A stretch of 64,000 bases of DNA, taken from NCBI GenBank assembly GCA_030295235.1, contig AP026151.1, positions 620,001-684,000 on the forward strand, read 5' to 3'. Source of the DNA: Fistulifera solaris (Eukaryota; Bacillariophyta; Bacillariophyceae; Naviculales; Stauroneidaceae). A program made the translations under genes and the position numbers. Of the stretch, positions 34,095 to 44,150 are shown one piece after another. Positions within the stretch are counted from its first letter, which is position 1; the number at the start of each line of letters is the position of its first letter. The notes below the pieces were generated by a model. It had not been told where the DNA came from. It saw only the letters and a list, made by a program, of their open reading frames with translations, and ran no database searches.

Positions 34095-36837
34095 TCATTC
34101 AAAAGCGCCTTCACCATCACTGAAGCTATCCGTGTCACTACTCACATGACAATAACCGGGTGTGACCAGTTCGCGAAATTCGTGGGACTTGTACAGCTTG
34201 GGCCAATCCAAGAGCATCAAATGCAAACGGACTAAATTCCATTCTTCTTGACCATCGGCTTTGTTCGAAGTGGGCAACGATACAACACGACAGCGACCGC
34301 AACACAAAAAGGCCGCTTTTCCCACACGCACAAATAAAGAAACAATCGTGGGACTCTCCGCATCTTGCGTCGACAGCAATTTTTGGGCCATGGGCGTCGT
34401 CCCCGATTGCCACTGATTCTGTCGAATGAACCACGTCAAAATTTGTCCATCTTCCAGCCATTCGTTGGGAAAACTGCGGGGTTGACCGCGACCGGGTGTT
34501 TGTGGCATATTCACAAATAGAAAAAAGGCATTCTCCATTTCAATCAATCCGGATCGTTGCTGAAAGTCAAGTTTTCCTCCTTCTGGTATCGGCAGAAACG
34601 GCATGACACAGCGATCTTTGGATTTGCCAACGTAAGCTCCCAACAGCGAATCCATTCTCTTGTGGAAGGTCGGTATGTCAATCGATATCATGTGTGATGG
34701 ATATCGAACAATACCTTCTCGATCCGTGTAAGGCCGGTCACCTTCCATGTCCGATGGTCCCGATGGATAACGCGGCGGATCGTCTCCTGTTGACCAGTCT
34801 ATCATTGTAAAATGTTTCGTGAGTCACACATCCAAGCATCATGCATCATCGTCACATTAGCGACTTACGTTGATTCACCACAAAATGGTCACCGACCACA
34901 CGCTTAGCATTTAACTTTCGAATCACTTGAGCGTCGGTATCACTATCCAGAAAGAGGAAACGCCACGACACGAGCGTATTGAAAAACAATCGATCATCTT
35001 TCCACCGTCCCACTTGAGGGTGATGGAAAAAATCGGCATGGACCGCTTTCAAGAGAAGTTCTGTGATCACGGGTGTCACCGCCGCATCCAACGACGCGTA
35101 CTCGATTTGTTCCATCGTGAGAGGCCGTGAGGACCAATTGGAGCACTGTTCCTCTTTCTGTAGAGCCTTGCCCAAGAATGTTTCACACAAACGACTGAGT
35201 GACGATGTCGCGGTTCGTGCATTCCGCTGCTTATTGATGTGCATTACTCGTTTCGCCAGTACTGACGATTCCAATACGGAATGAATGGTCTGCAACGCCG
35301 TTATGTGGGGATAACTCGCCGCCAGCTGACGCAAATCGTGTACGACCTGGAAACCCGTTTTAATGAGACGCTGTGAAGTCAACAGATCGCCCAACACTTG
35401 TGCCACGGCGATTTCCAAAGAATTCTTGGGAGTACTCGTCATTTGCAAAGGCCGCAACAGGGCTTGCAAATCCAGCAAATACACCTTGCGTAAGGGGTGC
35501 AACGAAATTTGCAACAGTAACACCGGCTGTGGTTCCTGCCGTGATGTGGTGTAAAAACTCGGCAGCCATTCACAATCCAAGCCCACCAATCCTGTCGCAA
35601 AGCCATCATCATTGGCCGTTTGTGTCGTCAATTGCAACAGCATTTGGGACACATCGTTCGAAAATTGTTGTACCGCTTCCATCGTATCGACCACCAAAAT
35701 ATGTTTTCGATAATAATCTTCCACACGCTGCCCCGGCTCCGGCTCGTACAGATCCTGCAATTGCAAGTAGACTGTTTCGTCTTCGGTCACTGATGGAACG
35801 GGACGCGGACGAATCCCCAACACGCTGGAGGCTTGTTTTGACCACAATGATGATTTGGTCACCATTGCTTCCGCCGGATCCTCCAATGGACTCAATAATT
35901 GGTACGAGTACACGACCAAATCCAACGTCTGATTCAATACCCAGTTCCGTAACGAATCGTGACTTTGGACGTTGGTGCGAGCTTCGATGAGCAACAACTG
36001 TCCCGGTTTGAGCCTTCGAATGACGTGGGCTCCTTCGTCCGCATCCAAGTCCCTGTGTTGCAGCAAGGTTTTTCCGGCAATGATCTGCACCGCCATGTCA
36101 TGACCCGTGCCGGGACATCTCCACGGATACAAGGTGGAATTTTCCTCGACAGGCGGCCCGAGATCTCCAAACACGAGACACCGGGCCATTTTTCGGACGC
36201 TCGTCAAACGCCCCACAATCGTGACATCCACATTCTGTAACGGATTCTCTGTATCCGGATGATTCAGAATTTGTTTTACAGTTTCCACACTCGGTGGTTC
36301 GACCGAAAAGAAGGGTTTGTAGCGGGGAGTTTCAGGAGTTTCATTGTTGACATTGGAAGCCGCAATCGACGCCGTCCGAACCTGGGGTTGTTGCAACAGA
36401 TACTTTAAGGGCAGAACACACGAGAATTCCGGATGTCCTCCGCCACCATAGAGTAAATGGTGATCGAGAAGAGAAGTGTCGATCACCGTCATGGCCGGTA
36501 ACGGCTGTAACCCCAGCAACGGAGGCACCGTTCCGGGGGCGAAACCGCACAACGGGCACAATCGATCCGAAGGACAGAGTTTTAAAGCAAGACCGGTCAC
36601 GTGTTGCAATTGGGTAACGTCGACACGGTGTGTTGCGGGTAGTATGGCAAGAACATACGACCCAGTGTCGGCTTCAAAGACTATCGAATTGACATGGATG
36701 GCTTTTGCAGGAATATCGCGATCGTGAACTAACTGAGCGTCCGGTGTGACTTCGACCAGACGCGACAATCGTACGAAAGAATCATTCTCAAGGGCCGTAA
36801 AGGATGTAATGTTGTAGTCGCCGTTGAATGAATTCAT
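34095..36837 (-). CDS. YbaK-like / OB-fold / RNase D-type 3'-5' exonuclease fusion
   Basis: Two exons, 36837-34869 and 34798-34095, with a 70-nt intron, 890 residues. The N-terminal part resembles YbaK/ProX tRNA-editing domains (LCPLCGFAPGTVPPLLG, DTSLLDHHLLYGGGG). Next comes an OB-like segment (VDVTIVGRLTSVRKMARCLV). The centre is a DEDDy exonuclease: Exo I GLDCEWLPS, Exo II LIKTGFQVVHDLRQL, Exo III EYASLDAAVTPVI. After the intron comes a C-terminal domain of about 235 residues that I do not recognise. The ATG at 36837 was preferred because the upstream in-frame codons come from the adjacent mobile element. A role in RNA or tRNA quality control is inferred from the domain mix. Confidence 0.8.
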
Positions 36838-37019
36838 TCGAAGGAACGTTACTTGTCTTCTTGTATGAGCAATGAGAAACGACTCGGTCAAACTGGAAGA
36901 TCCGGAATCGTGATTGAAAATCACGTTGTCGCAGTCACGAGTAGCATCAACGATAAAACTACACGCAAGCCGACCCTTAACTCTAGAAAAGGATTGCTCG
37001 GCCGGCTACTTTCCCCAGT

Positions 37020-39973: not shown

Positions 39974-41425
39974 TCAAGAAACACAAGAGCCTAAGGTTTC
40001 TTTGGCGAAAACATCTTGATTCCCAGAGAGCAGATAATAGATCCTGTCAGGCATCCTATGCCAAGTTGCAAGCGCCGTACCGAGTAAATACGAGCGAATT
40101 CTTTCGTCTTCTACTTGTTTAAGGGCGTCGAACTCTCTCGTGAATATATCAAAAACGGCTTTTTGCCACTTCTGTCGCTGTACAATCCTGTCGGGCCAAC
40201 TGAAATCATCGAAGCGAATATCATGCGAGCGGTTTCTTTGCAGCCACACTTGGAACGGTTCGGATCGCCCGAGAATGGGTGGGTCACGCTTCGGCGGCGG
40301 ATAGAAACGAAGTGTTCGAAGACGCGGATGTTGTGCCGCAGCATTCAATATATTCATCTGGGGAAATACGAAAGGAGTCTCGTCACTGAACAAACCCAAA
40401 ACTTGAAGACTTGTGTTAGTTCGTAGCATATCCAACAAGTACATCGCAAAGAGTAGAGAAATGAGTGTCAAATCAAATTGTTTGAAATGAAGCTCTTTTA
40501 ACGAGCATTCAGGCGAAGACACTGCGTCAAGCAGTTTACGTAGAAATTTACCGATCGCGAGAACAGTGTCATTGTCGTATTCATATTTCCCATCAAGAAA
40601 GCTCACTTCGAGATTTTGCGGACGGAAAGTTCCATAACGGAGCGCTTTGAGGAGTGGTTCTCTCCAGTCCTTGTCGAAAAGGAAGAAATGAATATCGACA
40701 ACAAGGGTGTTCACGCTTGCTGCGGCAATAAGAGGAGAGAGTCGTGATGGCATATCTTGTCCGTTGAAGTAAAGGCGATCAAACACGGGGTACATGGCGC
40801 GATTCAGAAATTTGAGTATCCTTTCATTACAGTTGCAACCAGGAAAGCAACAAGCTTCCAAAATCTCCGTTTCTCTTCTTGTATTTTCCAGCCAGTAAAT
40901 TATTGCTTGACCTTCGTCATCGAATTGACAGTGGTACAGATTGACATCAAACTTTCGATGTGAAACAAGTTCAACAGATTGGTCAGGACTTATTGAAAAA
41001 CAATGGAAAGAATATGACCTCGATGGATAAGCACAGATGATGTGTCGAAGTTGCTCGGGCGTGAAAATCAATCTGTTTCGGGGGCTCGAATAATAGTCGT
41101 CTCCTATCTGCAGTTTGTGGGAGTCAATCTCCGGAAGACTAAGTACACGGAATACCACTGATCGAAGCGAATCGATGTCACCGCGTTCGGCAGCAAAAAC
41201 TAATGAGCGCGTCGTAGAATCACAACCACGGGAACACCTCACAAAACTGTATTCTTCCTGCATAATTTTAGTTTTTTCCGGTGCAACGAAAACACCCGTA
41301 TCCTCGATACAAAGACGCTCAACTTTGTTAGCTTCCGCCCAGAAGACGTCGAGACTTTCGACGCTATCCAGATCACGCAAGCAGAAGTGCCCTTCCTCTC
41401 GAAGGCGTTTGATCGAATAAGTCAT
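39974..41425 (-). CDS. Leucine-rich-like family protein, copy F (intact)
   Basis: The only copy with no interruption. From the family start MTYSIKRLREEGHFC at 41425 it runs 483 residues. All blocks are present: SLDVFWAEANKVERL, EQLRHIICAYPSR, SVELVSHRKF, LKELHFKQF, LGLFS, HPRLRTLRFYPPP, MPDRIYYLLSGNQD. The frame stays open upstream to 41569, but the family N-terminus fixes the start. Scattered leucine-rich segments suggest a curved repeat fold used for binding. No membrane segment, signal peptide or enzyme motif. Function unknown. Confidence 0.75.
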   Translation of the reverse strand: MTYSIKRLREEGHFCLRDLDSVESLDVFWAEANKVERLCIEDTGVFVAPEKTKIMQEEYSFVRCSRGCDSTTRSLVFAAERGDIDSLRSVVFRVLSLPEIDSHKLQIGDDYYSSPRNRLIFTPEQLRHIICAYPSRSYSFHCFSISPDQSVELVSHRKFDVNLYHCQFDDEGQAIIYWLENTRRETEILEACCFPGCNCNERILKFLNRAMYPVFDRLYFNGQDMPSRLSPLIAAASVNTLVVDIHFFLFDKDWREPLLKALRYGTFRPQNLEVSFLDGKYEYDNDTVLAIGKFLRKLLDAVSSPECSLKELHFKQFDLTLISLLFAMYLLDMLRTNTSLQVLGLFSDETPFVFPQMNILNAAAQHPRLRTLRFYPPPKRDPPILGRSEPFQVWLQRNRSHDIRFDDFSWPDRIVQRQKWQKAVFDIFTREFDALKQVEDERIRSYLLGTALATWHRMPDRIYYLLSGNQDVFAKETLGSCVS

Positions 41426-41744
41426 GGTGCTAAATGTCAATTTTAATGGTTGACGGAGAAAGGGATAATCACTTCGAGCATGGTGATAATAAGCTCTCGC
41501 GCGTCGTCGTATCGTGTATCGTGTTGCTGCAAAGGGCGTTAAAATTCTTCCTCCGTATTTCCATGGCAATAAATATTTTCGTGTGGGTTCAGAATAACGC
41601 AGTCCTGGGTCGTGGGTCCCGGGTAAAACTAACGCGAGCTTTTGTGACCAGCAGCGGTTAAGGCGGGCCTAGGTGTCACAAACAATCCTGCCGCTTTAAC
41701 TGATTCAAAAAAATGTTTTACTTTTTCAATAAACACGTTGTTTG
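41426..41744. other. Upstream region of copy F
   Basis: No gene. The final bases (GTTTG at 41740-41744, or TGTTTG from 41739) form the left target-site copy of the TRIM element. Confidence 0.4.
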
Positions 41745-41865
41745 TGATGAAAATACTAACGTACTGTGGAATCGAACCACAGAGCCAACCCAATCACGTC
41801 GTATTTCTACCCCGATCCATGATATATAAGCCACTCTGATTGACGTCCAGACCCTCAATCTGACA
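41745..41865 (-). repeat. TRIM long terminal repeat (3' copy on - strand)
   Basis: Identical to 42018-42138. Contains a TATA-like TTATATATC and a string like a tRNA T-arm or Pol III B-box (GGTTCGATTCC) inside a 6-base stem. Confidence 0.8.
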
Positions 41866-41873
41866 TCCTCCCT
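41866..41873 (-). other. TRIM polypurine tract
   Basis: AGGGAGGA on the - strand, directly adjoining the 3' terminal repeat; expected plus-strand primer. Confidence 0.65.
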
Positions 41874-41999
41874 GGCCTTATACTATCATGATCGTACTGT
41901 TTTGCCCTTCAGCCTCCTCGCTTGAGACCGCTTCAAGCCCTGTTCTTTTATCCTCCCGGCTTCACAGGAGTCGGCAACAAACTCACTCCGCCAGGGTTC

Positions 42000-42017
42000 G
42001 AACCCTGCACGTTACCA
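42000..42017 (-). other. TRIM primer-binding site
   Basis: On the - strand TGGTAACGTGCAGGGTTC starts at the base after the 5' repeat. TGG pairs with the CCA end of a tRNA, and the following GGTTCGAACC resembles a T-arm. The spacing between T-arm and CCA is two bases shorter than a standard tRNA, so the primer tRNA is not identified. Confidence 0.65.
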
Positions 42018-42138
42018 TGATGAAAATACTAACGTACTGTGGAATCGAACCACAGAGCCAACCCAATCACGTCGTATTTCTACCCCGATCCATGATATAT
42101 AAGCCACTCTGATTGACGTCCAGACCCTCAATCTGACA
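42018..42138 (-). repeat. TRIM long terminal repeat (5' copy on - strand)
   Basis: Identical over 121 bases to 41745-41865, implying recent insertion or gene conversion. Confidence 0.8.
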
Positions 42139-42360
42139 TGTTTGTACGAATGCCAAGAACATCTCCAGATATGACTAGAAATGATTAACTCGAATTATCC
42201 AAGAAAGCCTCATACTCACTTGAGCGCCTCCAAGGGAAGCACCTAAGTTAGGGCCCACGATGGAAGCTATCGCAGCTTAAGAAATTTGTTGTTGTCATGT
42301 AATTTATGGTTATTAGTTGTGGCTATACTAGCTCTGCTTCTGAATCAAGAAAAATACGTT

Positions 42361-43790
42361 TCAACAATATCGAGCAAGCAAGTCCTGATTCCCGCACAAT
42401 AAATGGTAAACTCGATCCGGCTTCTGATGAAAATTCCCCAGGGTGGTCGCAAGTAAATGCGAGCGGATCCTTTCGTCTTCTACTTTCGTGATGGCATCAA
42501 AGTCTTTCATGATGATCGCGAACACGGCTTTCCGCCACTTCCGGAGACGACGCCTGTTGCTCAATTCTTCTTTGTCTATGAACTGAATGTCGTGCGATCG
42601 GTTCTTCTGCGCCCACATTGGAAAAGGACCCGTTTGCCCGGGCTTCGGTGGGTTCCGCGTTGGGGGATAGAAACAAAGCTTCCGAAGGCGCGGATGTGCA
42701 GCGGCAGCATTCAAAATGCTCATTTGCGGAAACTGCAGACGAGAAACAGTGCTATAAACACCCAGTACTCGAAGACTTTTGTTTTTCTGCAACATCTCCA
42801 CTACGTTCTTTTTCAAATCGAGTGCAATGTCTGTTAAATTGAAAGCCCTCAGATGAAGCTCTTTCAGAGAACAGTCAGGCGACGAAAGAGCCTCGAGAAA
42901 ACCAGCCATGAACTCGCGGACCTCATCTATCTCTGTCGCTCTAAATGAATGATTGCCGGGAGCGAACGATATACTGAGGCTTCTCGGACGGAACGTTCCA
43001 TCTCGAAAAGCGCAAAGTAGCGGAGCCCTCTCATGCCTATAATCTTTGATGAAGAAGTCAATACTCGTCATGACTGTCATGACGTTTGCTGTAGCAACGA
43101 GCTGAGTAAGTCGAGATCCGATATCCTGTCCTCTCAGATAAAGCTTATCAAAGACAGGATACATGGAGCGGCCCAAAAACTTCAAAATATTTTCATGGCA
43201 ATCACAGCCATGCAAACAATAATACTTCAGAATGTCCGATTGCTCTCTGCCATTCTCCAGCCAATCAACTATCGCTCGACCTTTGTCCTCAAACTGACAC
43301 GAGTCGACATTGATTTCAAACTTTCGATGGGAAAACAGCTCCACAGATTGCTCGGCAGTAAGTGACAAAAATTGAAAGATTACCGTCGCAATGGAAAGGC
43401 ACAAATGATATGCCGCAGCTGCTCAGGAGTAAATATCAAACGATTTCTTTTGCTTAAAATGAATTTTCCCAGTATCTTCAAGCCTTGGGCATTATTTGTC
43501 TCTGGAAGACAAAAGACGCGGAAAGCCACGGAGCGAAGCGTCTCGATGTCACCACGTTTTCCCACAAATGCAATGCGCGTATTGTAATCATCGCCTCGGA
43601 AACACGAAAAGCAGGTTTGTTTGTCTAAGGCTTCGAAAAGATCAGGCGCAACGAATACATTCGTATCTTCAATATAAAGCCGCGCAACCTTTTTGACCTC
43701 CGCCCAAAAGACGTCAATATTTTCGACGGCATCCAAATTACTCAAACAAAAGTGCCCTTCCTCTCGGAGGCGCTTTATTGAATAAGTCAT
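42361..43790 (-). pseudogene. Leucine-rich-like family, copy G, interrupted once
   Basis: N-terminal part from MTYSIKRLREEGHFC (43790) to ICAFPLRR is intact. There an in-frame TAA (43382-43380) replaces the tyrosine codon of the paralogues, and within 20 bases a T-run is one base short. The remainder (SLTAEQSVELFSHRKF to LLCGNQD) is then uninterrupted to 42361. The stop is not a homopolymer change, so I call it a young pseudogene, though a local consensus error covering both changes is possible. Confidence 0.6.
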
Positions 43791-44150
43791 GTTCTTTCTG
43801 TCGACGAAGACAACCGAGAAGTTTTGGCACGGATCATCGAATGAGCAATGACAACGAGCACGTCCATTCGAATGACACCGCAGTTTTCGCGTTATTCGTT
43901 TTGTTGCGTTTGTTGTGAAAGTGCGAGACGATGAAGCGGGAACCGGAATCTGTTTTCTACATAGGTTATATGATCGCTACGGTACTCAACATTGTAAGAA
44001 AAACTAAGGTTGCTACTACGTATACTTAACGCTAGCTCTCTAGTAAAATTGACTTTAAAACATTTGAACCGCAAAGTAAATAACGAGATCTTACGGTCCA
44101 GGTAAAGCTAATTAGATCTATCTGTAGAGAGAGTAACCAAAAACCATTCT
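43791..44150. other. Gap between G and H
   Basis: No gene seen. Confidence 0.4.

Follow-up and report, generated by a model that had tools for sequence, protein, structure and literature searches.

The gene-less LTR retrotransposons known as TRIMs have been reported outside plants from an ant, a bivalve and a tapeworm, and helpers for such elements have earlier been proposed from sequence similarity (e.g., PMC3281118). As described there, SMART FRetro129 is, like the element presented here, gene-less, shorter than 1 kb and equipped with a primer site (PBS) and a purine tract (PPT), and its candidate helper FRetro64 is likewise a Copia element whose LTR shares little with that of the small element. 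The choice of FRetro64, however, was based on 96% identity of the internal regions together with a similar PBS and PPT, whereas our TRIM has an internal region and PBS unlike those of the Copia element, is tied to it by composite insertions, and has a target duplication (TSD) of 6 bases. In rice, Dasheng (Jiang 2002, cited in PMC1940013) is another LTR element that lacks autonomy and has a putative autonomous partner, RIRE2, but Dasheng is described as a large derivative with high identity to that partner, while the TRIM here is small and shares little sequence with its own.

Similar in build are Helenus and TRIMp3, likewise short TRIMs whose LTRs contain a B box and resemble a tRNA in their 3' part; most Helenus families carry boxes A (TRGCY..YGG) and B (GGTTC), and for Helenus of fungi a Copia helper was proposed, as it is here (PMC10886601). 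According to the same survey, Helenus comes from fungi, animals and one lycophyte and has TSDs of 4 or 5 bases, against 6 here, with a method that allowed 4-6. Its naming criterion is a tRNA-derived sequence in the LTR; the LTR of the present TRIM has a T-arm, a B box and a tRNA-type 3' end, yet no tRNA model fits it. None of the matches listed in the open-access literature reports a diatom TRIM, which characterizes those matches and supports no claim about print as a whole; for T. lutea, 240 automatic, unchecked TRIM calls are on record (PMC5963040).

Here we describe a TRIM of 394 bp from the window, as we call the whole stretch of 64,000 nucleotides analyzed (C25:620001-684000, in an assembly of 51.7 Mb and 61 contigs). 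The element is real and recently mobile, and judging from sequence comparison it is very probably (probability about 0.93) an LTR retrotransposon without genes that one Copia family in this genome mobilizes in trans. TRIM RNA would enter Copia particles and be copied by the Copia reverse transcriptase, which would at times switch between TRIM and Copia RNA, and the resulting product would be inserted by the Copia integrase.

An earlier, sequence-only reading had proposed a complete TRIM at this place, with identical 121-base repeats ending in TG...CA, a PBS and a PPT that each adjoin a repeat, a TGTTTG duplication outside and a B-box-like string within the repeat, and all of these features are present as stated (Table 1). 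The two LTRs agree at 121/121 bases and enclose an internal region of 152 bp, with the sense strand of the element being the minus strand. Since the longest ATG frame in the whole TRIM, on both strands, encodes only 74 aa, there is no coding sequence, and together with the two short LTRs, the PBS, the PPT and a size below about 1 kb this places the element among TRIMs. The same reading called a copy of this size with every hallmark unusual; 394 bp is no record, however, as SMART FRetro129 measures 292 bp (PMC3281118).

Table 1. Features of the TRIM and its surroundings, in window coordinates.
Feature	Position	Strand	Basis
Complete TRIM copy, 394 bp	41745..42138	-	sequence comparison
5' LTR (element sense), 121 bp	42018..42138	-	identical to 3' LTR
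3' LTR (element sense), 121 bp	41745..41865	-	identical to 5' LTR
TRIM internal region, 152 bp	41866..42017	-	
PBS TGGTAACGTGCA, adjoining 5' LTR	42006..42017	-	
PPT AGGGAGGA, adjoining 3' LTR	41866..41873	-	
TSD TGTTTG (sense CAAACA)	41739..41744	+	
TSD TGTTTG (sense CAAACA)	42139..42144	+	
B box GGTTCGATTCC, LTR 88-98	42041..42051	-	other LTR holds second copy
T-arm-like hairpin CTGTGG-TTCGATT-CCACAG	42037..42055	-	from sequence
tRNA-type 3' end GTACGTT-A (LTR 102-109), then GTA + TTTT (LTR 113-116)	42030..42037	-	tRNA-end reading inferred
Putative A box or TATA-like stretch TGGCTTATATATCATGG (LTR 33-49)	42090..42106	-	tentative assignment
Predicted U5-PBS hairpin, PBS buried within	41980..42060	-	folding of RNA

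Searching the assembly with the 394-base query gave 21 matches over 18 loci (the window copy and 17 others, which were extracted). A plain LTR-internal-LTR structure is found in seven simple copies (window, L009 to L013 and L015), three are composites with Copia (L014, L016, L018), L017 has three LTRs of which one is partial, L019 is inverted and rearranged, and L020-L025 are solo LTRs or fragments. Each of the seven simple copies lies within an exact 6-base TSD of its own sequence; that of L012 (GCATTT) was scored by eye because its 3' LTR carries 9 extra bases. In all, exact 6-base TSDs are found at 14 of the 18 loci (the simple copies, the three composites, L017, L019 and the solo LTRs L020 and L022), with 5/6 bases matching by eye at L021 and none at L023-L025; the lack of an exact TSD at these four weighs against the main reading. 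Among the 36 flanks of the 18 loci, of up to 1000 bases each, none is shared between loci, and the sole match is that of the two sides of L012 to each other, 93% over 131 bases; L012 (C7:891272-891657) is thus inserted in a local repeat. With 14 exact TSDs and no flank common to two loci, the TRIM must have transposed. The sequence-only reading had made its case depend on a second copy with different flanks, and the simple copies provide just that.

The two LTRs match at every base in the window copy, L009, L013, L014 and L015; those of L010 differ by one substitution and those of L011 by two substitutions and two gap columns. Two subfamilies can be told apart by the LTR tail (TTTTCAACA or TTTTCATCA; TTTTAACA) and the internal region. 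As a further point against the main reading, neither a close allele nor an empty site of the window copy was found with its flank, which beyond itself gave 11 matches at 65-85% identity, and one exact 22-base pattern found no relatives in viral contigs, a collection from which records near this genome are possibly excluded. Small insertions in L012, L023 and L024 cluster near LTR 102-112, beside the tRNA-like 3' end. An odd PBS, TGGTACTGGTAACGTTATCTCAATC, marks the middle unit of L017 (C4:1009976-1010531), in which the start of the second LTR, near base 55, may correspond to the 5' end of the RNA.

The window copy sits between minus-strand frames (39974-43976), and the frames next to it (39974-41668, 42361-43422) have no Pfam match. 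Relatives of the right-hand frame at about 65-66% lie at C25:660083, 664166 and 635943 and on C26, forming a local gene family. Elsewhere in the window, one minus-strand frame (34852-37005) fuses aminoacyl-tRNA editing and 3'-5' exonuclease domains. Similar genes, tRNAs or pattern matches recur on the paired contigs C25/C26, C5/C6, C19/C20 and C23/C24, a pattern suggestive of an old genome duplication or of hybrid origin. The diatom-type genome assumed at the outset is supported by a PsbV frame on C60, whose best PDB matches are 8iwh, 6j3y, 6jlu and 7vd5, which we take to be diatom photosystem II entries; the PDB search with another plastid frame gave nothing at E 1e-10.

That an autonomous helper must exist elsewhere had likewise been anticipated, and a Copia family of about 5.4 kb is a strong candidate. 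RVT_2 matches stand close to two of the TRIM fragments, one on C13 and one on C39. The C39 element has LTRs of 511 and 513 bases and a total length of about 5.38 kb, and its open frame encodes, in the order typical of Copia, a zinc knuckle, integrase-type domains and RVT_2 (Pfam). RVT_2 (695-926) scores above the Pfam cut-off and rve (288-378) below it (E 1.7e-5, 25.5 bits against 32.6); an RVT_2-type reverse transcriptase with the integrase upstream of it is the arrangement of the Copia superfamily. The Copia LTR has 31 matching stretches in the assembly, and all nine further full-length copies checked carry a 6-base TSD. Eight of these TSDs were found by script, while TACCTT on C1 was read by eye, as the LTR of that copy is a variant at 90-91%. 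Among plant LTR elements surveyed, 6-base TSDs occur in 0.4% (PMC6317226).

The longest identity between TRIM and Copia is the 14-mer CAGGGAGGATGTCA, located at the PPT/LTR junction of both; the TRIM junction, CAGGGAGGA followed at the LTR boundary by TGTCA, is exactly the same in the putative helper. Also shared are GGTAGAAAT in the LTRs, the LTR tail TTCAACA and the TSD length. Against the helper reading count the facts that outside the 14-mer only runs of up to 9 bases are held in common and that the Copia PBS, CGCTTATAAGCG, differs from that of the TRIM. An element that bears the TRIM PBS and could serve as helper was not found in the assembly: TGGTAACGTGCAGG occurs exactly at eight places, all of them TRIM loci, and with one mismatch at seven further ones, compared with 11 in all for the reversed-pattern control. 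Nor do any of the 21 matches form an LTR pair about 5 kb apart, as a helper flanked by TRIM LTRs would. The Copia primer pattern GCCACGCTTATAAG has eight exact places, all beside Copia LTRs, and six with one mismatch (control 20). After the Copia 5' LTR, CGCTTATAAGCG is a 12-base palindrome in a predicted hairpin (-11.4 kcal/mol over 60 bases) that spans the LTR junction, and a pattern search of the assembly found no tRNA to fit it. Only one family among the 134 RVT_2 matches was examined, and another Copia family could help too.

How the TRIM itself is primed can be approached from its LTR, in which GGTTCGATTCC within a T-arm, GTACGTT-A, GTA and TTTT follow one another in an order that resembles the 3' end of a tRNA gene. 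PBS bases 1-11 can pair with an LTR-derived ..GTACGTTA plus CCA through 10 Watson-Crick pairs and one G-U; once CCA/TGG is set aside, pairing extends over 8 of 8 positions at a spot that the T-arm determines, for which chance is about 4 in 10,000 counting G-U. RNA folding predicts a U5-PBS hairpin with a 56-base core of -21.8 kcal/mol (z -5.3, none of 200 shuffles as stable), while the LTR folded alone has a z of -0.37. The hairpin is predicted in all eight full-length copies, in L015 with a different outer stem, and as these copies are nearly alike this is weak evidence of conservation. GGTTC (box B) is invariant in their 5' LTRs, and the box A TGGCT..TGG of the window copy is altered in L010 and L014. 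On the window, ARAGORN found no tRNA in the LTR and Rfam nothing at gathering score. In E-value mode (41700-42200, up to E 10), Rfam gave no tRNA match there despite the T-arm, B box and 3' end; its two hits, both below threshold, were a cyanobacterial tmRNA (13.5 bits, E 0.16) that overlaps the T-arm and U5-PBS hairpin and a worm snoRNA (E 1.8). Pol III transcription of the TRIM, the property that would place it with TRIMp3, is possible given the B box and TATA-like stretch in the LTR, yet neither program calls a tRNA.

An ordinary cellular tRNA stands about an even chance of being the primer. Its gene would be missing from the assembly or lie beyond our patterns, and the likeness in the LTR would be a relic of that tRNA or serve the hairpin alone. 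The PBS does begin with TGG, and seven of the eight full-length copies retain TGGTAACGTGCAGG instead of the LTR-copied TGGTAACGTACTGTGG, an observation that speaks for a cellular primer and against one from the LTR. Coverage of the tRNAs is also partial, as 63 of 1908 candidates were scored in the genome search, 56 of them on C57-C61; the 31 distinct tRNAs examined come mostly from organellar-looking contigs, and the nuclear set is incomplete. All 31 have GTTCRANYC 11-14 bases from their end, with exactly 12 in 17 of them, presumably because ARAGORN gene ends are often one base too long.

Four pattern searches of the assembly, read alongside this partial tRNA set, found no cellular tRNA gene that fits the TRIM PBS. 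The first had eight matches, all TRIM (control 0), and the fourth had nine against a control of 12. The second, with a fixed spacing that suits 17 of the 31 tRNAs if ARAGORN ends are taken literally, had 28 matches (control 3), of which 26 are TRIM, and at one of the two other places ARAGORN found no tRNA. The third counts in favor of a cellular tRNA, as the 28 of its 53 matches that lie outside the 25 TRIM ones slightly exceed a control of 23; these others were not individually inspected. Within the 31 tRNAs the best contiguous pairing with the PBS is 6 bases, compared with 11 for the LTR-derived end. The match to the tRNA gene set that the sequence-only reading had proposed to look for did not appear in the partial set, and the best-matching 3' end found is the TRIM's own LTR-borne tRNA-like end plus CCA.

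It is conceivable, if on balance unlikely, that the TRIM supplies its own reverse-transcription primer from the LTR. LTR RNA would be cut after the tRNA-type discriminator A (LTR 109), receive CCA and then prime on the TRIM's own PBS, and LTR-derived RNAs would end ..GTACGUUA-CCA. Tf1 primes with the folded 5' end of its own RNA. Priming of the Tf1 type, predicted for 12% of plant elements (PMC6317226), resembles this proposal in that an LTR element uses its own RNA, but here a CCA-tailed tRNA-like end from the LTR would do so. For Helenus, Kojima found no complementarity between the tRNA-like part of the LTR and the PBS and concluded that this part is not a primer, as that survey puts it (PMC10886601), whereas here 11 bases can pair. 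Self-supplied priming would explain a PBS unlike that of the helper and unfit for the cellular tRNAs found, the presence in the LTR of a T-arm and of GTA-TTTT beyond the tRNA-type 3' end, and the order of parts in L019. Between two copies of CCCACA, this locus has the PPT, LTR 1-109, CCA and the reverse complement of a whole LTR, as if CCA-bearing LTR RNA had been joined to the first cDNA base, with cDNA starting from the exact LTR end. We do not accept L019 as proof, because a plus strand ending TGGTAACGT and annealing to the ACGTTA of the LTR gives the same letters, so that mispriming over 6-9 bases explains it too. In favor of a self-supplied primer, the C13 composite described below breaks at internal base 12-14, just beyond the 11 pairable PBS bases; the absence of a tRNA model for the LTR counts against it.

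The case for Copia as helper is carried by the three composite loci, each of which lies between copies of one 6-base TSD that abut a Copia end on one side and a TRIM end on the other. The C39 composite (C39:504.7-510.6 kb), with CGATCA on both sides, starts with a whole Copia, followed by 17 bases equal to Copia 2961-2977, 352 bases of inverted pol, and the last 18 internal bases and LTR of the TRIM. At the C13 composite, GCGCAC stands after the TRIM LTR and outside an inverted Copia that is complete except for two LTR bases at the inner junction; the stretch from this Copia to the TRIM LTR holds pol sequence, about 150 bases long, and TRIM internal 12-152. In L014, AAGGTG precedes Copia LTR 1-423, which gives way to an A run; TRIM internal sequence starting at about base 115 comes next, then an LTR, an internal region and another LTR, and a second AAGGTG closes the locus. 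Its A run has 24 A. The Copia LTR accounts for 4 of them and TRIM copies for 4-5, which leaves about 15 extra; TRIM is joined here to what resembles a Copia transcript's poly(A) tail, as if the growing strand had slipped across to it.

A single TSD around each whole composite means one integration with Copia and TRIM joined beforehand, and so demonstrates, as far as junction sequences can, that composite molecules integrated as single units. The joining is most simply attributed to template switching in a shared particle, each step inside which is inferred. Composites within one TSD are also known from cereals, where they are ascribed to switching between co-packaged RNAs, but those complexes, as described, join close relatives and have three LTRs, whereas TRIM and Copia have little shared sequence and are joined internally, once via an A run (PMC1950507). 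The great majority of known complex LTR elements reportedly arose by recombination between separate insertions (PMC1950507), and if the present ones had formed after integration, by such recombination or by nesting of Copia into or beside the TRIM, they would have no bearing on a shared particle. We regard this as very improbable, since recombination of separate insertions predicts mismatched flanks and nesting predicts internal duplications, while each composite has one matching 6-base TSD, at a Copia end and a TRIM end, and the A run of L014 speaks for RNA as the template. That the TRIM is instead a SINE-like Pol III element, for which the B box and T-arm in the repeat might speak, has next to no probability and is refuted as a transposition mechanism by the two LTRs, the PBS, the PPT, the fixed 6-base TSDs and the integrase-type composites.

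The complementarity between LTR and PBS is a feature that was sought and, as reported, not found in the 2024 survey of tRNA-bearing TRIMs (PMC10886601), and it makes self-supplied priming testable. Mobilization of the TRIM by an autonomous LTR element is indicated by the three single-TSD composites, and with them the apparent link between TRIM and helper goes beyond proposals based on similarity. These three insertions record TRIM and Copia nucleic acids united before integration, although the PPT, the LTR ends and the TSD length are nearly all that the two have in common, and thereby bear on the minimum sequence that a parasite needs for borrowing a helper.
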